From NCBI RefSeq assembly GCF_041821045.1, contig NZ_JBGUAW010000002.1, positions 62,001 to 126,000 of the forward strand: a stretch of 64,000 bases of DNA. The letters are read 5' to 3'. The position numbers and the translations under genes were made by a program. Positions 7,533 through 47,990 of the stretch are shown piece by piece. This stretch comes from Thiohalorhabdus sp. Cl-TMA (GTDB lineage Bacteria; Pseudomonadota; Gammaproteobacteria; Thiohalorhabdales; Thiohalorhabdaceae). Below the pieces are notes generated by a model. The model made no database searches, had not been told where the DNA came from, and was given only the letters and a program-made list of their open reading frames with translations. Every line of letters starts with the position of its first letter. The first letter of the stretch is position 1.

Positions 7533-8684
7533 CTACAACCGCCGGGGGCCTTTGCCTCCGCGCCCCGCAGAGTCGTCGTCGAGCTGATAGTTCGTCTCCT
7601 CCGGTACGGATTCGCCCTTCTCGATCCGCGCCATCTTCACGGCGAGCCGGACGTCGTTGACGGAGTCGGCGTGCCCCTGGGCGTCCTCGGCGGTGATCTC
7701 GCCGCGGTTGTACAGGTCCAGCAGGGCCTGGTCGAAGGTCTGCATGCCCTCGTCCCGGGACTCCTCCATGGCCTGCTTGATTTCCCCGAATCGGCCCTGG
7801 GCGATGAGGTCTGCCACGGTGGGGGTATTGAGTAGGATCTCCACGGCCGCAACCCGCCCCCGGCCGTCGGCGCGCGGAATCAGGCGCTGGGAGATCACCG
7901 CCCGCAGGTTCAGGGACAGGTCCATGAGGGTCTGGTTGTAGCGATCCTCGGTGAAGAAGTTTACGATCCGCTCCATTGCCTGATTGGCGTTGTTGGCGTG
8001 GAGCGTGGAGATGGCGAGGTGGCCGGTGTCGGCGAAGGCGATGAGGTGCTCCATGACCCGGGCGTTGCGCACCTCGCCGATCAGGATCACATCCGGGGCC
8101 TGCCGCAGGGTGTTCTCCAGCGCGGACTCCCAGGACAGCGTGTCCATGCCGAGCTCGCGCTGGTTCACCAGGGACTTCTTGTGGCTGTGCACGTACTCGA
8201 TGGGATCTTCCACCGTAATGATATGATCCGCGCTCGTGCTGTTGCGGTGGTCGATCATGGCGGCCAGGGTCGTGGACTTTCCGGAGCCTGTGGCGCCCAC
8301 CACCAGCACCATGCCGCGCTGGGCATCGATGACTTCCCGCACCCGGGGGGGCAGGTGGAGCTCCTCGAAAGAGGGAATCACGTCGTAGATGCGCCGGATC
8401 ACGAGGCCCACGGTGCCCCGCTGCCGGAAGAGGTTGACGCGGAACCGTCCGAGCCCCGAATAAGACAGGGCCAGATTCAGCTCCAGGTCGCGCTCGAACT
8501 CCGCCTTCTGGCGCTCGTTGAGGATGGAGGCGGCGATCCGCTCCGTGTCCTCGGCCTTGACCGGGGTTTTGCCGACTCGGGCGAGCCGGCCATCCACTTT
8601 CATGGAGGGCGGGGTGCCGGTGCTGAGGTAAAGGTCCGAGCCCGCTTTATCCACCATGAACTTCAGTAACGCATTCAAATCCAT
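7533..8684 (-). CDS. pilU: type IV pilus retraction accessory ATPase PilU
   Basis: A PilT/PilU-type hexameric ATPase of twitching motility, 383 aa, acting at the inner-membrane base of the pilus. It opens MDLNALLKFMVDKAGSDLYL; Walker A is GATGSGKST at residues 130-138. It has the Asp box TVEDPIEYVHSHKKSLVNQRE, Walker B APDVILIGEVRN and a His box (TGHLAISTLHANNA). The length and the extended charged C-terminus fit PilU better than PilT (about 345 aa). No pilT is seen beside it. It is transcribed divergently from the L,D-transpeptidase. Confidence 0.88.
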   Translation of the reverse strand: MDLNALLKFMVDKAGSDLYLSTGTPPSMKVDGRLARVGKTPVKAEDTERIAASILNERQKAEFERDLELNLALSYSGLGRFRVNLFRQRGTVGLVIRRIYDVIPSFEELHLPPRVREVIDAQRGMVLVVGATGSGKSTTLAAMIDHRNSTSADHIITVEDPIEYVHSHKKSLVNQRELGMDTLSWESALENTLRQAPDVILIGEVRNARVMEHLIAFADTGHLAISTLHANNANQAMERIVNFFTEDRYNQTLMDLSLNLRAVISQRLIPRADGRGRVAAVEILLNTPTVADLIAQGRFGEIKQAMEESRDEGMQTFDQALLDLYNRGEITAEDAQGHADSVNDVRLAVKMARIEKGESVPEETNYQLDDDSAGRGGKGPRRL

Positions 8685-8752
8685 AAATAATTCGCCCCTG
8701 GGTGGCCGGGAGGTAGGCCGCGGTATCGCTGGCCCCTCGGCACGGTCCCTAA

Positions 8753-9601
8753 ATGACTATCACAGTGAAGCGGACCTGTGCAGGCTTCCTGAACGGGAAG
8801 GGAGAGACATTGTTGCGTGCCCATCGCCGGCTCCGGCGTCCAAGGGGATGGAAAGGGGGGCTGATTGCGATCGGGATTCTTTTGGCGGGCCTCGCCGTGG
8901 GTCCGGCCGTGGGCGGGGACTTGCGCGTGGAGGTCAATCTCCCCGCGTACATCCTTCGGCTCTACGACGGCGAAAAGCTGCTCATGGAGCGGCCGGTGAC
9001 TATCGGCGACCCTGAACACCCCACGCCGGCGGGACGCTGGGAGGTGGACAGGCTGATCTGGAATCCGGCGTGGATTCCGCCGCGCTCCATGCGTGAAACG
9101 GCGGGCAGCGAGCGCCGCCCGCCGGGGCCGGAGAACCCCATGGGGGCGGTGAAGATCCAGCTGGCGGGCCCCTACTATATCCACGGTACCCGTCGCCTGG
9201 GGCGGCTCGGGCGTGCCATGAGCCACGGCTGCGTACGGTTGGCCAACGGTACCGCCGTACGGCTGGCGGAGCGTCTCCAGCGGCACCTGCTGTCCCCGGA
9301 CCGGCGGGTGGAGATCCGGCGCCAACGCGAGGCGCATCCCGGCAGGCCTGTTCGGGTGCGGCTTCCGGAGCCGGTGCCCGTGGAGATCCGTTACCAGCCG
9401 CTGGTGCTGGACAAGACCGGCGGTGTGCTGTACCCGGATGTCTATGACCGAATCGGGGACGTTCGCTCCTATTTGCGCGAGGCCCTGGCGCGGGATCTGG
9501 ACGTCCCATCCGAGCGGTTGACCCTGGGGGGAGGGAGCCTGCTGGGACGGTTGGGGGATCAATGGAGCCGGCCCCTCCAGTTCGAGCTGGAAATCAACTA
9601 G
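8753..9601 (+). CDS. L,D-transpeptidase (YkuD domain), membrane-anchored or secreted
   Basis: Peptidoglycan or lipoprotein cross-linking enzyme of the periplasm. The catalytic signature is complete: HGT, then GRAMSHGCVRL with the catalytic Cys and His. An N-terminal hydrophobic segment (GLIAIGILLAGLAVGPAVGG) acts as signal or anchor. The ATG at 8753 has no ribosome-binding site. A TTG at 8810 or 8813, preceded by GGGAAGGGAGA, would give the more usual charged n-region (RAHRRLRRPRGWKGG), and I think it is the likelier start. About 40 nt separate it from the P-type ATPase gene, so the two are probably co-transcribed. Whether it makes 3-3 cross-links or attaches lipoprotein cannot be told. Confidence 0.85.
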   Translation: MTITVKRTCAGFLNGKGETLLRAHRRLRRPRGWKGGLIAIGILLAGLAVGPAVGGDLRVEVNLPAYILRLYDGEKLLMERPVTIGDPEHPTPAGRWEVDRLIWNPAWIPPRSMRETAGSERRPPGPENPMGAVKIQLAGPYYIHGTRRLGRLGRAMSHGCVRLANGTAVRLAERLQRHLLSPDRRVEIRRQREAHPGRPVRVRLPEPVPVEIRYQPLVLDKTGGVLYPDVYDRIGDVRSYLREALARDLDVPSERLTLGGGSLLGRLGDQWSRPLQFELEIN

Positions 9602-9640
9602 CGCGGGGTGGCCACGCACCCCGAGCAAGGAATAACCATC

Positions 9641-12316
9641 ATGGAAGCCATCGAGGAAGCCCGGACCCGGCACCGGCTGCCGGTTCGGGGCCTGACGCCC
9701 GGCGGGGAGCGTGTCGTGGAAGCGGTCATCGGGGCCCTGGACGGTGTCGCGGCGGTGGAAGTGGATGCCGCTTCGGAAAGTCTGGAGGTCTGGGTGGAGG
9801 GGGACTCCGGAGCGGTTCTGGCGGCAGTGGCGGACGCGGTGGCCGGTGCGGGCTGCACCCTCGAGGGCCATGAAGGGGAGGCCCCGGCGGCCGAGCTGCT
9901 GTTGCCGGTGCCCGGACTGGAGGGCGGCCGGGAGGCGGCCCGCCTCCGCGAGGTGCTCGGTGCCGAAACGGGCGTTATGGACGTGATGCTGGAGGGCGCG
10001 TCCGGACAGGTACGGATCCGCTACCTGTCCGGCTTGGTGGGGCCGGAGGCACTGGTGGTGGCCGTCGAGCAAGCGGGGTACGCGGTGCCGGTGGAGACCG
10101 GGCATTATCCGGTGCGCGACCTGCAATGCGGGACCTGCGTGGCCGGTTTGCGTGATGCGCTGCTCGATGTGCCGGGAGTTCTGGCCGCCCGAATAAACCC
10201 GGCCCTGGAGCAGGCGGACATCACCTATCTGCCGGGACGCACCGGATACGCCGATTTCCGCGATGCCGTGGCCCGTCGGGGCTTCCGGCTGATCCGCCCC
10301 GGGAGCGGAGCGGAGGAAGTCGAGCGCGAGGAGCGGGAACGGGGCCGGCGACAGGCGGATATCCGGCGGCGCCTGCTGACGGGGTCGGGGCTGCTTCTGC
10401 CCATCCTGCTGCTGGCCAACTGGTCGCGCCTGGGCTTGCAGGGGGCGCTGCCCCTGGACGCGGCGGTCAATCAAGCCCTGCAGCTGCTTTTCGTGCTGCC
10501 GCTGATCGCCTATGCGGGCGCTCCCGTCTATGCCGGGGCCTGGCGGGTGGCCCGGCGCGGCACCGCGGATGCCAACACACTGGCGGCCCTGGGCATAACG
10601 GCGGTCTCGTTCCTCAGCCTGGCGGTCCTGCTGGCCCCGGAGGGGCTTCATACCGGGAGAACGGCAGGGTTGCCGGCTTTTGACGCGGCCGGGGGTATGG
10701 TGGTCCTGCTCCTGCTGACGCGGTGGCTCGAGGGCTGCGCGCAGGGGCGCCTTCGCGAGGCCCTTCACCGGCTTGTCCGGCTCATTCCCGGGCGGGCCCG
10801 TGTGGTCCGCGGCGAGGGGGTGGCGGATATGGCGGTGGAAGAGGTGACCTCGGGGGACGTGGTGGTGGTCCGCCCGGGGGAGCCGGTGCCGGCGGACGGA
10901 CGCATCATCGAAGGGCGCTCCACCGTCGACGAGTCCATGATCACCGGCGCGGCGGCGCCGGTGGAGAAGGAGCCGGGCGCCCGGGTGGTCGGCGGCACCC
11001 TGAACCAGCACGGCACCTTCCGTTTCCGCGTCGAGGCAGCGAAGGGGCGCACGCTTCTGGCGCGCATGCTGGCGCAGCTGCGGCGTGTGCGGACATGCCA
11101 GCCGGCCTTCGCGGCCTGGGGGGAGCATATGGCCGCGAAGCTGGTGCCCGCCGTCCTTGGCGTCGCCGCGCTGGTGCTCGCGGTCTGGTGGGGGCTAGGG
11201 CCCGAGCCGGCCCTGGCCCTGTTCAACGCCGTGGCGGTGCTCATGGTGACCAGCCCCCGAGTCCTGGGGCTGGCGGCTTCTTCCTCGGTGGTGGTTGGCG
11301 CCGGCATCGGGGCGATGCAGGGGATCCTCGTCCGGTCCGCCAGGGCCCTGGAGCGCGCCCACCGGGTGGATACCGTGGTGCTCGGAAAGACCGGGGTCCT
11401 GACGCGGGGGCGGCCGGAAGTGGTGGAGGTGGTGGCGAGCCATCCCGAGGCCCACTGGCTCCCCGATGTGGCCGCCCTGGAGGAAGGCAGCGACCATGTG
11501 CTGGCCGAGGCGCTCCGGATGTATGCCCGCGAGCAGGGCTGCCAAGGAGGGCGCCCGGAGCGCTTCGAGGTCTGGCCGGGCCAGGGAGTGTTCGGGATCG
11601 TGAACGGCCGGATGGTAGTCTGCGGCAACGCCACCCTCGCCAGGGAGGTGGGCGTGGATGCCGATCCCCTGCAGGGGCGCGCCCGGGCACTGGAAGAGCA
11701 GGGTCGGACGGTGCTCTGGGTGGGCGTGGACGGGGACCTGATGGGTCTTGTGGCCGTTGGCGACCCCGTGCGGGAATCGGCGGTGGAGGCGGTGCGGGAG
11801 CTACGACGCGACGATAAGCAGGTGGTTCTGCTTACCGGGGGCAGTCCGCGCACCGCCCATGCCCTTGCCCGGCAGGTGGGGGTGGCGAAGGTGGTGGCCG
11901 GCGCCCTGCCGGAGCACAAGGCCGAAGAGATCCGCCGGCTCCGGGAACAGGGGCGGGAGGTGGCGGTGGTCGGAGAGGCCGTGAAGGATGCCCCGGCCCT
12001 GGCCCGGGCCGATATCGGCATCGCCCTGGGCGCTTACGCCGACGGCGCCTCGGCGGTGGGGGATATGGCCCTGCTGCGCGGCGATCTCCGGCTGGTTCGG
12101 CGGGCCCTGCGTCTCGCCCGGCTGACCGCGCGCAACGCGCGCCAGAACCTGGCCTGGGCGGCGGCCTACAACGGGGTCGGCATCCCCGTGGCCGCCGGAC
12201 TGCTGTATCCTTTCCTCGGCTGGACGCTGTCTCCGGTGGTGGCCACCGCCGCCATGGGGGCCGCGTCCCTGCTGGTGGCGATCAATGCCTTGCGGCTCCG
12301 GAGGGTGCGCCTTTGA
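9641..12316 (+). CDS. degenerate P1B-type (CopA-like) heavy-metal ATPase, probable pseudo-ATPase
   Basis: The start at 9641 ([18 protein letters not shown]) has AAGGA 9 nt upstream; length is 891 aa. Three HMA-like domains occupy about residues 10-230; only the third keeps a CxxC (CGTC, C163-C166). The fold then follows copper ATPases: membrane helices, actuator, core helices, P/N domains, last two helices ([22 protein letters not shown], keeping the copper-type YN). Every functional motif is changed: TGE loop is TGA (Ala437), CPC is SPR (538-540), DKTGT is GKTGV (Gly582 at the phosphorylated Asp), HP is HV, TGD is TGG (732-734), GDGxND is GEAVKD (778-783). There is no frameshift or stop. It cannot form the aspartyl-phosphate, so a transport role is unlikely. 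plsY overlaps its stop codon. Confidence 0.9.
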
Positions 12317-12936
12317 GTCCCGAAGTGATGTGGCTGACCGCGGCGGTGGCCTTTGCCGCGGCCTATGCCGTCGGCTCCCTGACCTCGGCGGTGGTGGTTT
12401 CCCGGGCGCTGGGTCTGCCCGATCCCCGCTTCGCCGGCTCCGGAAACCCCGGCGCCACCAACGTCCTGCGCCTGGGCGGCAAGCTGCCCGCGGCCCTGAC
12501 CCTGGCGGCCGATATCCTCAAGGGGACCGTCCCGGTAGCCGTGGCGATGATCTGGCTGAGCGGCTGGCCGCTGGCCCTCGTGGCCGCCGCCCCCTTCCTC
12601 GGACACCTGTTCCCCGCCTATTCCGGCTTCCGCAACGGCGGCAAGGGCGTGGCCACCGGACTCGGCGTCTACCTGGCCCTGGCGCCGGCGGTGGCTGGCT
12701 CCCTGGTAGCTACCTGGCTGACGGTGGCCGCCCTGACCCGGTACTCGTCGCTCTCTGCCCTGGCGGCGGCGGTCAGCGTGCCCCTGTGGAGCGCCTACTG
12801 GCACCCCGGCCACGGCCCGCTCATCGCTCTGGGCGTGGTGCTGGCCCTGCTCCTCGTCTACCGCCACAAGGGCAACATCACTCGTTTGGTCCGGGGCGAG
12901 GAGTCCCGCATCGGCGACAAGTCCAAAACCGCCTGA
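12313..12936 (+). CDS. plsY: glycerol-3-phosphate acyltransferase PlsY
   Basis: Inner-membrane enzyme that acylates glycerol-3-phosphate from acyl-phosphate, the first step of phospholipid synthesis. It has 207 aa and about five hydrophobic helices. Family motifs are visible: [14 protein letters not shown], the substrate loop [35 protein letters not shown], and the C-terminal [15 protein letters not shown]. The start is a TTG at 12313 overlapping the upstream stop (TTGA), with an in-frame ATG at 12328 as alternative. This indicates translational coupling to the pseudo-ATPase gene. Confidence 0.93.
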
Positions 12937-14991: not shown

Positions 14992-15271
14992 GCGGTCGAA
15001 AAAACGCGAGTGGACCTGTCTCCCCCGTGGATATTGAATTCCCGGGGGTGTGCTGTTGTTGGAGGACGGCTACGGGGCCGGGCCCGCGGGGCGGCGGCCG
15101 AGGAAGTGGCTACCCTTCTGTTCCGTACGGGCGCTCGCAAGCCCTCAAGCACCTGTAGAACGCGTCAAGGCTGCGGTGACTCAACTGATTTCCGACCGCG
15201 AGATACCCAGGCAGGCTGGCGATCCTCGCCTGCCCACGCTCCTGGGCCGGTATGCCTCCGGCGCCACCCCG
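14992..15271 (+). other. gap or uncertain 5' end before mutS2
   Basis: The mutS2 frame is open from a GTG at 15050, but family similarity starts only near 15272. Codon use in 15100-15230 is poor (several GTA, GCA, CCT, ATA, AGG), which suggests noncoding DNA. A 7-bp hairpin with an 11-nt loop (GGCAGGC/GCCTGCC) lies near 15210-15236 without a T-run. No other gene is seen. Confidence 0.4.
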
Positions 15272-17647
15272 CCGGATGATCCGCTGGAGACCGGCCGAAT
15301 CCGCCGCGTCCTCCGGGAACGGACCGCCAACCCGTACGGGTCGGAGCGGGCCGATTCCCTGGATCCGTTGCGCGATGCCGAGGCCGTGGCCGGACGGTTG
15401 GTCCTGGCCGCCGCGGTGGCCGAGGAAACGGCCGCGGGCAGGCCCCTGCCCCGTCTCGCCCTGCCGGATATCCGCTCCGCGCTGAAACGGGCCCGAATCG
15501 AGAACGCGGTGCTCGAGACCGATGACCTCGGCGCCGTCCATCATTTCCTGATCGCCGCCGCCGAGGTGGAAGCCTGCGCGGCGGAGGTCGAGAATCCCCT
15601 GCTCGCCGAATACCTGGGCGGCTTCTCCCGGCCGGAGGAGCTGGTCCGCCACCTGGACCGGATCATGGATCCGGCGGGCGGCATCCGGGACCAGGCGAGC
15701 CCCGAGCTGGCCGCCGCGCGGGCCGGGGTGCGCCAGGCCCGGGACCGGGTGCGCAGCCACCTCGAGCAGCGGGCGCAGAGCAATGCGCTTCGCCCCCTTC
15801 TCCAGGATACGCGGGTAACCCTGCGCCAGGGGCGCTACGTGCTGCCGGTCAAGGCCGAGAGCCAGGGCCGGGTCAAGGGCGTGGTGCATGCCGCCTCGGG
15901 CAGCGGGGAGACCGTGTTCATGGAGCCCCTGGACGCGGTGTCCCTGAACAATGCCCTGGAGCAGGCGGAGAATCAGGTGCTGCGCGAGGAGTATCAGGTG
16001 CGGGTGCTGGCCACCCGCGCCGTGGCGCGCGCCAGTGAGGAGCTGGAAGGCGCGGAGGGCTTCCTGGGCCTGCTGGATCTACTCCAGGCGGGCGAGCGCC
16101 TGCGCGCCGATCTGGGCGGCTCCGTGCCCGAGCTCTCGGGCGGTCCGGAATTCGACCTGGAAGCGGCGGCCCATCCCCTGCTGGTGCTGGAGCACGGTCG
16201 CGAGTCGGTGGTGGCCACCGATCTCGCCCTGGGCGGCGAGGCCCGCTGTCTGGTGGTGTCCGGGCCCAATACCGGCGGCAAGACCGTACTGCTCAAGACG
16301 GTGGGCCTCGCCCACTGGATGGCCTACTGCGGCCTGCCCATCGCCGCCAGCGGCCGCGTGGGCGCTTTCGCCGACCTCTGGGCCGTGATCGGCGACCAGC
16401 AGAGCCTGGCGGCGGACCTGTCCACCTTCTCCGCGCAGCTGGTGCGCTTGAAGGGGGTACTGGAGGGGGTGGACGAGCACCGGATGGTGCTCATCGACGA
16501 GCTGGGCTCGGGCACCAACCCCGGCGAGGGCAGCGCCCTGGGCGTGGCCGTCCTGGAACGGCTCCGCCGCGCCGGATCCGTGGCGCTGGTATCCACGCAC
16601 CTCGACCGGCTCAAGCACTATGCCGTGCGTCATCCCGGGGTGGTCAACGCCGCCCTGTCCTTTGACGTGGAGCATCTCGCCCCCACCTATCGGGTGGAAT
16701 GGGCCCAGGCCGGCCGCTCCCAGGCGCTCGAGATCGCCGAGCGCCTGGGCCTGCCGGGAGACTTGCTGCAGGAGGCGCGGGAGGCCCTTGGGGAGGAGAC
16801 CCAGGAGGTGGAGCGGCTGCTGGCGGAGCGGGACCGATTGCTGGCGGAGGCCACCGCGGAGCGTCAAGAGGCTACGGAGGCCCGCCGTCGCGGCGAGGCG
16901 GCGGAGCGGGAAGCCCGGAGCCTGCGGGAACGGCTGTCCGCGGAGCGCGAGGAGGCCTTCGGCAAGGTAGAAGCCCAGTGGAACCAGGCCCTGGAGTCGG
17001 CACGCGCGGAGGTGCGCGAGATCATCCGGCACCTCAAGGAGACCGGAAACACCGCGGCCGCCGACGAGGCGTTGGCGCGCCTGGACGCGGAGTTCCGTCG
17101 CCAGGCGCCGACGGAACAGGCGGAAGCCCCTGTTGTCGAACAGCCACTGAGGGTCAATGTTGGGGATCGGGGACGTCTCGCCCCGTTCCGACAGGCCGGC
17201 GAGGTGGTGGGTGTCGACCACGACCGGGGCGAGGTGGAGATGGACCTGGGCGGCAAGCGGGTGACCGGCAAGCTGGAGAACTTCCAGCGCACGCAGGCCG
17301 CCGAGCCCGAGGCCCCGGCCGCGGAGCCGGCGGCCCCTAGTGGCGGGGGAACAGGCCGCCGGGGGCCGTCACTGCCGGAGAGTACCCAGATCGACCTGCG
17401 CGGCAAGCGGCGGGACGAGGCTATGGCCGCGCTGCAGCATTTCCTGGACAACGCCTATGGTGCCGGACTCGGTCACGTTACCGTGCTGCATGGCAAGGGG
17501 ACGGGCGTGCTGTCCAAATCGGTCCAGGAGATGCTGACCGATGACGGCCGTGTGGCCCGGTTCGGTTTCGCCCGGCCGGAGGAAGGCGGGGCCGGCGTTA
17601 CCGAGGTGGAATTCAAGAAGGGCGGTTCCAGCGCCCGCTCCGGCTGA
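15050..17647 (+). CDS. mutS2: endonuclease MutS2-like ATPase with Smr domain
   Basis: MutS2 proteins bind branched DNA or collided ribosomes and carry a C-terminal Smr nuclease-like domain. The MutS core is visible: an N-terminal segment resembling the LEF, then YGxExxxxL pattern near residues 78-105, helices, Walker A (SGPNTGGKTVLLK), a signature and Walker B region (MVLIDELGSGTNPGEGSALG). A long coiled coil (about residues 570-690) follows, then a KOW-like segment. The Smr domain has IDLRGKRRDEAM and the HGKGTG motif. The first 70 or so residues from the GTG at 15050 have no similarity, so the true start may be nearer 15270. Its place between yqeY and dnaG is unusual. Confidence 0.9.
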   Translation: MLLLEDGYGAGPAGRRPRKWLPFCSVRALASPQAPVERVKAAVTQLISDREIPRQAGDPRLPTLLGRYASGATPPDDPLETGRIRRVLRERTANPYGSERADSLDPLRDAEAVAGRLVLAAAVAEETAAGRPLPRLALPDIRSALKRARIENAVLETDDLGAVHHFLIAAAEVEACAAEVENPLLAEYLGGFSRPEELVRHLDRIMDPAGGIRDQASPELAAARAGVRQARDRVRSHLEQRAQSNALRPLLQDTRVTLRQGRYVLPVKAESQGRVKGVVHAASGSGETVFMEPLDAVSLNNALEQAENQVLREEYQVRVLATRAVARASEELEGAEGFLGLLDLLQAGERLRADLGGSVPELSGGPEFDLEAAAHPLLVLEHGRESVVATDLALGGEARCLVVSGPNTGGKTVLLKTVGLAHWMAYCGLPIAASGRVGAFADLWAVIGDQQSLAADLSTFSAQLVRLKGVLEGVDEHRMVLIDELGSGTNPGEGSALGVAVLERLRRAGSVALVSTHLDRLKHYAVRHPGVVNAALSFDVEHLAPTYRVEWAQAGRSQALEIAERLGLPGDLLQEAREALGEETQEVERLLAERDRLLAEATAERQEATEARRRGEAAEREARSLRERLSAEREEAFGKVEAQWNQALESARAEVREIIRHLKETGNTAAADEALARLDAEFRRQAPTEQAEAPVVEQPLRVNVGDRGRLAPFRQAGEVVGVDHDRGEVEMDLGGKRVTGKLENFQRTQAAEPEAPAAEPAAPSGGGTGRRGPSLPESTQIDLRGKRRDEAMAALQHFLDNAYGAGLGHVTVLHGKGTGVLSKSVQEMLTDDGRVARFGFARPEEGGAGVTEVEFKKGGSSARSG

Positions 17648-45747: not shown

Positions 45748-46491
45748 TCAATACAGCAGCCGCCCGCCGTCGACGCTGAGCACCTGCCCGGTAACGTAGT
45801 CGGCGCGCGCCAGGTAGTGCACCGCCTCGGCCACGGGCTCCTCGCCGCCCGCCCGGCCCAGGGCCGTATGGCGCAGCAGCGCCTCCTTGTCGCTCTCGCT
45901 CTTGCCCGCGTCCGGCCACAGGGCCGCGCCCGGCGCCACGGCGTTGACGCGCACCCGCGGGCCCATCTCCTTGGCCAGGGCCCGGGTCAGCATCACCACG
46001 CCGGCCTTGGAGACGGAATAGACGGGGTGGTGCTCCAGGGGCCGCTCGGCGTGGACATCGGCCAGGTTGATGATCGCCCCGCCCCGGGCCTCCAGGTGCT
46101 CCTGGGCCGCCTGGGCCAGGAAGAAGGGCGCCTTGAGGTTGGTGTCCAGCAGCTCGTCCCAGGCGGGCTCGCTCGCCTCCTTCAGGGGCGTGGGATAGAA
46201 GCGGGCGGCGTTGTTCACCAGGATGTCCAGGCCGCCGAAGGCAGCCACCACCGCCTCCACCAGGGGGCCGAGGTTGGCGGTCTCCTCCAGGGCGCAGCCG
46301 AAGACGCGCGCCCTTCCCGGCCCCTGCGCCTCCAGCTCCTCCGCCAGGGCCTCCGCCGCGGCGCGGCTGCTGTGATAGTGGATGGCCACGTCCGCCCCGG
46401 CCGCGTGCAGGTGCCGGGCGGTGGCCCGGCCCAGGCGGTGGGCGGCCCCGGTGACCAGGGCCACATGACCGGCAAGATCGCCATCGGCCAT
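45748..46491 (-). CDS. short-chain dehydrogenase, pteridine-reductase-like
   Basis: NADPH-dependent SDR, 247 aa. The ATG at 46491 begins MADGDLAGHVALVTGAAHRLG. The TGAAHRLG cofactor loop, with a basic residue following Ala-Ala, is typical of pteridine reductases (FolM/PTR1). The catalytic YSVSKAG and DILVNNAARF are present, and the C-terminus ends YVTGQVLSVDGGRLLY. The convergent folB-folK genes support a role in dihydrofolate or dihydrobiopterin reduction. An ordinary ketoacyl-type SDR cannot be excluded. Confidence 0.8.
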   Translation of the reverse strand: MADGDLAGHVALVTGAAHRLGRATARHLHAAGADVAIHYHSSRAAAEALAEELEAQGPGRARVFGCALEETANLGPLVEAVVAAFGGLDILVNNAARFYPTPLKEASEPAWDELLDTNLKAPFFLAQAAQEHLEARGGAIINLADVHAERPLEHHPVYSVSKAGVVMLTRALAKEMGPRVRVNAVAPGAALWPDAGKSESDKEALLRHTALGRAGGEEPVAEAVHYLARADYVTGQVLSVDGGRLLY

Positions 46492-46617
46492 GGGGGGCTC
46501 CTTGCTGCGCGTTGACGGGCCGGGCGGTTCCCGAGGGACCCGAGGCCCCGTGGCTGCTAGTATAACGCCCTTCCCCGGTAGCCAAGCAGGGAACGCCCCT
46601 GCCCGTCGAGGATATCC

Positions 46618-47802
46618 ATGGAATTTACTGAATCCGCTCTCCCCGAGCCCAACGACGCGGAGCGCGAGCGGGCGGAGTCCGTCGCCGCCGTCCTGCGCGA
46701 CCGCATGGCCGCTAGCGGCGGCGCGATCCCCTTCGACCGGTTCATGCGCACGGCGCTCTACGAGCCCGGCCTGGGCTATTACGTGGGCGGACGCGAGCGC
46801 CTGGGCCGCGGAGGCGATTTCGTGACCGCCCCCGAGCTGACGCCCTTTTTCGGATACACGGTGGCGGGCCAGGTGGTGGACCTGCTGGCGCGCTGCGGTG
46901 GTGGCGACGTTCTGGAGGCTGGGGCCGGAAGCGGCGCCCTCGCCACGCAGCTCCTGGCGGAGCTGGAGCGCCTGGGCAACCTCCCGGAGCGCTACCGGAT
47001 CCTGGAGGTGAGTCCGGACCTGAAGGAACGCCAGCGCCGCACCCTGGAGCGCACCCTGCCCCACCTCATGGACCGGGTGGAGTGGCTGGAGGATTTCCCC
47101 GCCGAGGCCTGGCGTGGGGTGGTGGTGGCCAACGAGCTGCTGGACAGCCTGCCGGTGCACCGGGTGCGCATCACTGAGGAAGGCCTCAAGGAGCTCCACG
47201 TGGCTCCGAACGACTCGGGCGGCTTCCAGTGGCGGGAGGGCCCGGTGAGCGACCCACGCATCGCCGATGCGATCGGGAGCCTGGACGGTTTGCCGGCGGG
47301 CATGGAGACCGAGGTCAATCTGGAGGCGCCGGCCTGGACGGTGCAGGCGGCGGAGAGCCTGGAGCGGGGCGGCGTGCTGCTCATCGACTACGGTCACCCG
47401 GCCGCCGAGCTCTACAGCCCCGGGCGGGCCCGCGGAACCCTCATGTGCCATTTCCGCCACCGTGCCCACGATGATCCCTTCTACCTGCCGGGGGTCCAGG
47501 ACATCACCGCCCACGTGGATTTTTCCGCGGTGGCGGGCGCCTCCGCCGGCGCCGGTCTGGAGCTGGGGGGATTCGCCACCCAGGCCCAGTTCCTCATCAA
47601 TCTGGGGCTCACGCACCGTGTGGAGTCCTACCTCGGGGCGGGCGGCGTGAGCGACGAGGAACAGCTCCAGCTCGCCACCGCGCTCAAGCAGCTCACTCTG
47701 CCCCAGGGCATGGGCGAGTCCTTCAAGGCCCTGCTGCTGGTGCGCGGGGTGGAGGGGCCCTTTCCGGGCTTCCGCCAGGGCGACCGGGCCGGGGAGCTGT
47801 AG
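46618..47802 (+). CDS. SAM-dependent methyltransferase, MidA/NDUFAF7-like
   Basis: A 394-aa protein of the DUF185 (MidA) family, whose eukaryotic members methylate an arginine of a complex I subunit. IPFDRFMRTALYEPGLGYYVGG, DFVTAPELTPFFGYTVAGQ, DVLEAGAGSGALATQLL (SAM loop), GVVVANELLDSLPVHRV and HVDFSAVAGAS are highly conserved family motifs. It is divergent from the pteridine-reductase-like gene and followed by repeat copy C. The substrate in bacteria is unproven. Confidence 0.92.
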   Translation: MEFTESALPEPNDAERERAESVAAVLRDRMAASGGAIPFDRFMRTALYEPGLGYYVGGRERLGRGGDFVTAPELTPFFGYTVAGQVVDLLARCGGGDVLEAGAGSGALATQLLAELERLGNLPERYRILEVSPDLKERQRRTLERTLPHLMDRVEWLEDFPAEAWRGVVVANELLDSLPVHRVRITEEGLKELHVAPNDSGGFQWREGPVSDPRIADAIGSLDGLPAGMETEVNLEAPAWTVQAAESLERGGVLLIDYGHPAAELYSPGRARGTLMCHFRHRAHDDPFYLPGVQDITAHVDFSAVAGASAGAGLELGGFATQAQFLINLGLTHRVESYLGAGGVSDEEQLQLATALKQLTLPQGMGESFKALLLVRGVEGPFPGFRQGDRAGEL

Positions 47803-47811
47803 GAGAGAACA

Positions 47812-47990
47812 GAAACCGCCAAGATACGCCAAGGAAAAACGGCAGGATCAAACCCCTGAATAGGCAGCACCGGAAGTAAGGATAAGGGGGGAGGTGATTG
47901 GCCGCCCCTATTGAAAAGGTTGGCTGCTTTTCCCGTTAGGTTATCCGCTTTCCCTGGTTTCTTGGCTCCTTGGCGTTTTTTGCCGTCTTT
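47812..47990. repeat. dispersed CGCCAAGG repeat, copy C
   Basis: The left block (47814-47842) has ACCGCCAAG, then ACGCCAAGG and AAAAACGGC. The right block (47960-47985) has CTTGGCTCCTTGGCG followed by TTTTTTGCCG. The blocks are in opposite orientation but imperfect, enclosing about 115 bp. It lies between the MidA-like gene and uppP. Confidence 0.6.

Follow-up and report, generated by a model that had tools for sequence, protein, structure and literature searches.

A CopA-derived P-type ATPase gene with an intact reading frame and altered catalytic motifs in Thiohalorhabdus sp. Cl-TMA: a plausible retained pseudoenzyme

The genome of Thiohalorhabdus sp. Cl-TMA (3.74 Mb) contains, at positions 9641–12316 (+) of the window (the whole stretch of 64,000 nucleotides analysed here), a gene for a P1B-1 (CopA-like) ATPase in which all six named catalytic and metal-site motifs are altered and the reading frame is unbroken. 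The phosphorylated Asp, which is among the lost residues, is the defining feature of P-type ATPases. Our analysis confirms this observation, first made in an earlier note, and the interpretation offered there, that the protein has been kept for a role other than transport, is plausible. If the gene is under selection, it would encode an intact bacterial P-type pseudoenzyme, undescribed as far as our literature search reached, and it would mean that evolution can retain a P-type scaffold to handle metal passively; as a relic only, it still illustrates how an operon neighbour may hold a dead frame open.

The open frame spans 9608–12316 (+) and comprises 902 codons counted from a GTG at 9608, from which all residue numbers below are counted. 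The ATG at 9641 is predicted to be the likelier start, because it is preceded by AAGGA (9627–9631), and it gives a product of 891 aa, without a single stop or frameshift in these 891 codons. An open frame alone is little proof in this DNA, since long stop-free frames are common at 69% GC: the window has seven of more than 800 codons. One antisense open frame of 817 aa (8675–11128, minus strand), which overlaps the ATPase gene and the transpeptidase gene upstream of it, illustrates how cheap they are at this GC content. What counts beyond openness is that homology to CopA continues without a break from one end of the ATPase frame to the other. The GC content of its three codon positions (0.81/0.51/0.85) and its codon usage are similar to those of the neighbouring genes. 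Matches to the Pfam domains E1-E2_ATPase, Hydrolase and HMA are all above their cut-offs, as are those to NCBIfam TIGR01525 (467 bits, cut-off 346) and to TIGR01511 (420.2 bits, cut-off 397), the family that points to P1B-1 descent. A quick tree nests the protein among CopAs and joins it as sister (97% SH-aLRT) to 28 canonical CopAs that have two HMA domains and come from a different class of the phylum. Its terminal branch measures 1.79 changes per site (median 0.27), a length that makes the placement uncertain. Judged from the family matches and the tree, the gene descends from P1B-1 pumps. The unbroken frame of about 890 codons, the CopA-like fold from the HMA domains to the last helix and the CopA derivation claimed in the earlier note are thus borne out.

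The AlphaFold2 model (mean pLDDT 71, built from 11 sequences) comprises three HMA-like domains, eight long helices and the A, P and N domains, and CopA, ATP7B and HMA4 match its fold best; the model is weak evidence alone, because it leans on canonical relatives. CopA is also the best match among solved structures, both by sequence and by fold: the Legionella (PDB 3RFU/4BBJ) and Archaeoglobus CopAs share domain order and fold with the ATPase, at 38–39% core identity. The HMA1-like domain (9683–9877, +) has a degenerate metal loop (GLTPGGE) and is modelled with low confidence in the pattern beta-alpha-beta-beta-alpha-beta. The HMA2-like domain (9890–10093, +) has lost its CxxC (GLEGGRE, as compared with GMSCASC in the sister clade) and is otherwise of normal similarity. 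An N-terminal CxxC is therefore retained in HMA3 only (C174-G-T-C177, 10127–10138, +), the other two HMA domains having lost theirs. The mean hydropathy of the transmembrane (TM) columns is 1.66, compared with 1.70 in the references, and of the TM columns that normally lack charge only two are charged here, R551 being one.

Alignment against 42, and then 66, homologues defines the motif changes, all on the plus strand: TGE to TGA in the actuator domain (E448A, 10943–10951), CPC to SPR at the TM4 metal site (C549S and C551R, 11252–11260), DKTGT to GKTGV at the phosphorylation site (D593G and T597V, 11384–11398), SEHP to SDHV in the N domain (P631V, with H630 kept, 11489–11500), TGD to TGG at the hinge (residues 743–745, D745G, 11834–11842), and GDGxND to GEAVKD (residues 789–794, D790E, G791A and N793K, with the final Asp kept, 11972–11989). 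DKTGT is intact in all full-length homologues checked in either set. The phospho-Asp, the TGE Glu, CPC, TGD and GDGxND that characterize P1B-1 ATPases are thus all missing or altered. The claim that every catalytic motif is substituted holds for all six motifs named, with two reservations. First, many adjacent residues survive (K594, T595, G596, H630, T743, G744, K771, D794, Y854, N855 and M883). Second, the change of HP to HV is not diagnostic alone, because it is shared by a CopA homologue that is intact in other respects (L038 from genome G009, branch length 1.44); HP is not absolutely conserved among CopA homologues. Some structural invariants have been lost as well, e.g. G479K, G810Y and P558S.

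A map onto Legionella CopA and its copper-ligand positions puts A322 in the place of M148, S549 and R551 in those of the CPC cysteines, and E506 in that of D337, while E205 (E375), Y688-N689 (Y854-N855) and M717 (M883) are all kept. The TM5 YN and the TM6 Met/Ser ligands are accordingly present (Y854, N855, M883 and S887), apart from S886A. The soft copper ligands are therefore mostly lost and the other ligands mostly kept. The P-type cycle depends on four residues: the nucleophile Asp, the Glu of TGE, the hinge Asp and the leading Asp of GDGxND. All four are replaced, as the earlier note had claimed for the residues required by P-type chemistry, and by these established criteria the protein is, as a strong inference, catalytically dead.

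Relatives with the same losses were sought widely. None was found among 56 relatives, 369 genomes of the class and 398 of the phylum, nor in plasmids, viral contigs or a GTDB contig scan that used only six 8-residue patterns. There is accordingly no family of orthologues sharing the substitutions, which the earlier note had named as a result that would refute it, yet this outcome is indecisive, because the order is sampled by three species (three genomes) only. To look for a wider family, a degenerate pattern that allows G, A or V at the Asp position was run on the 398 phylum genomes; its sole P-type match was the ATPase studied here, and the other three matches were not P-type ATPases. The sister-clade CopAs from the other class (L062-L090), which reach up to 43% identity, have two HMA domains rather than three, and DKTGT and CPC are intact in 29/29 checked. 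Origin from a plasmid or other mobile element was rejected: all plasmid matches were below 60% identity, with none above about 41% among the 15 matches listed, and no relative was found in viral contigs.

The literature likewise offers no counterpart: our search for P-type ATPase pseudoenzymes, or for bacterial CopAs with all motifs altered, found none, in agreement with the earlier note, which knew of no described family of this kind. In a survey of 9,634 P-type ATPases from UniProt, DKTGT was kept in 99.77%, and the 22 proteins without an intact motif all carried single point changes (PMC3896382), whereas here six motifs are altered together. Human TMEM94/ERMA has a P-type-like architecture of A, P and N domains without TGES and has been argued not to cycle, a status that is itself contested (PMC12134183); unlike the protein described here it is eukaryotic, has ten TM helices and keeps a proposed phosphorylation Asp (D417), and it is not close kin.

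We compared the losses with those expected under neutral decay. Among columns with 97% conservation or more across 66 canonical CopAs, 8/14 catalytic or metal-site invariants are lost, against 18/86 others; with the 42-reference set the counts are 8/15 and 17/95 (Fisher p=0.005), an enrichment that is inflated by the choice of the locus, which was made on account of its broken motifs. Two paralogues from the same genome, imperfect controls because they belong to other subfamilies, have lost 0/14 and 20/86 (L006) and 1/14 and 15/86 (L002), and the long-branch CopA L038 has lost 1/14 and 8/86; fold constraint in the ATPase is by this comparison relaxed, though not absent. Neutral evolution was then simulated from 36 GC-rich homologues, with frameshift counts that rest on assumed indel-to-substitution ratios of 0.03–0.10. 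When it is run up to 18/86 structural losses, the simulation yields about 5 stops together with 7–25 frameshifts (P of neither at most 8e-5). With the stopping point set instead at the excess over L038 (8/86), about 2 stops and 3–10 frameshifts arise (P of neither 0.0004–0.02). At least eight catalytic losses arise with P 0.01–0.03 at the former stopping point and below 0.002 at the latter, which corresponds to a short dead phase. The non-catalytic replacements are milder than neutral (p=0.03–0.11). Measured against the resemblance of functional outgroup CopAs to the sister clade, a baseline that is noisy for the N-terminal domains, the drop in similarity is largest in TM3-4 (z -4.3), followed by the A domain (-2.9), the late P domain (-2.7) and TM5-6 (-2.0); it is slight and not significant in the N domain, and HMA2, HMA3, the first TM helices and the early P domain show none, which argues against uniform erosion. 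Simple neutral decay, with nothing to protect the frame, is a poor fit. The proposal of the earlier note, that the gene was selected for a non-catalytic role and did not simply decay, is thus the better-fitting hypothesis, supported by the intact frame and the simulations, although no relative with the same losses was found in the searches above.

We therefore consider it close to an even call that a copper-pump gene became a pseudoenzyme kept for a passive role at the membrane (copper binding, buffering or scaffolding) exerted through HMA3, and the uneven pattern of losses appears to favour such retention. A CopA-type gene would have come to lie between plsY and the L,D-transpeptidase gene, either by entering this site or by arising there, and would later have turned into a pseudoenzyme. 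A canonical CopA and a CPH-type CopB-like pump are encoded near each other on another contig of the same genome (C3), answering the earlier note's question whether a normal CopA exists elsewhere, and their presence would have left the copy at the plsY locus free to change. With all four residues that the P-type cycle needs replaced, a phosphoenzyme could be neither formed nor broken down, and with SPR in place of CPC the passage of copper through TM4 would be blocked. The protein still has its fold with eight TM helices, residues of the nucleotide pocket (H630, GxG) and HMA3 with its intact CxxC, the obvious candidate for the working part. Copper is reported to inhibit L,D-transpeptidases (PMC6593411, PMC9302775), which suggests a link to the adjoining gene: the ATPase could shield that enzyme or report copper status for it. 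Both the role and the link are speculative, and the other CopA loci give the link no comparative support, since no transpeptidase was found near those fetched, most of which had only 1–2 kb of flanking sequence. The more specific version, in which a CopA scaffold has been selected to bind or sense copper at the membrane, or to act there as a scaffold, in concert with cell-wall synthesis through the L,D-transpeptidase and lipid synthesis through PlsY, we regard as rather unlikely.

The locus itself provides the most serious rival to retention. Upstream of the ATPase gene lies a co-directional gene for a YkuD-type L,D-transpeptidase with an intact SHGCVR motif (8753–9601, +), and downstream lies plsY (12313–12936, +), the start codon of which overlaps the ATPase stop (TTGA). 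The ribosome site of plsY (GGAGGG, 12300–12305) is inside the ATPase gene, and no promoter-like site was found between the two genes. PlsY is generally essential. In this apparent operon the ATPase gene could be a relic under relaxed selection, with frame breaks that cut plsY expression purged while amino-acid changes drift, a reading that carries appreciable if minority weight. In one genus-mate (G002) the order is pilU, transpeptidase, plsY, tsaD, and here too the preceding gene, in this case that of the transpeptidase, overlaps plsY. Several findings against retention fit such a relic: no orthologue was found in any of the searches above, the branch length and the structural losses indicate relaxed fold constraint, and the losses lean towards GC-rich codons, D>G, E>A and C>R being those that GC-biased drift would produce. 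The loss of the metal loops of HMA1 and HMA2 also speaks against retention. No orthologue close enough for a dN/dS comparison was found, and at about 40% protein identity between the ATPase and its relatives synonymous sites are saturated. Protection through plsY accounts for the open frame but leaves the unevenness of the losses unexplained: a relic should erode evenly, whereas the catalytic residues are hit far more than other residues, the domains diverge unequally, TM hydropathy is intact and the replacements are relatively mild.

That the gene is instead a recent pseudogene, a divergent functional CopA that has newly died and in which frame breaks have yet to accumulate, is improbable. 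It is a singleton at the species level, both genus-mates (G001 and G002) lack it at the syntenic site, and some of the roughly 0.23% of catalogued P-type ATPases with an altered DKTGT are probably non-functional (PMC3896382); the eight catalytic or metal-site losses, however, are spread over every domain and some need two nucleotide changes, and in the time required for them the simulations predict stops and frameshifts, which are absent. In G001 (L058 4379-6417) the gap between pilU and plsY holds neither the transpeptidase gene nor an ATPase remnant; a transpeptidase copy is detectable in G000 and G002 and nowhere in the G001 genome, so that G001 cannot date the insertion. Sequencing error is an implausible source of so many separate in-frame changes. 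Least probable by far is an active transporter with altered chemistry and other acceptor residues, for which the retained nucleotide-pocket and P-domain residues (K594, T595, H630, K771 and D794) could speak, since the protein retains neither the nucleophile Asp nor the Glu of TGE, the hinge Asp or the first Mg-coordinating Asp, an Arg occupies the TM4 site, and we know of no P-type ATPase that works without these four residues.

Two other frames in the window deserve mention. A frame of 694 aa at 45748–47832 (-) matches a short-chain dehydrogenase/enoyl reductase domain in its last third only; its N-terminal 450 residues have no Pfam match and may be frame read-through. Farther downstream of plsY, between tsaD and dnaG/rpoD, a MutS2-like protein with MutS domain V and an Smr domain is encoded at 15050–17647 (+).
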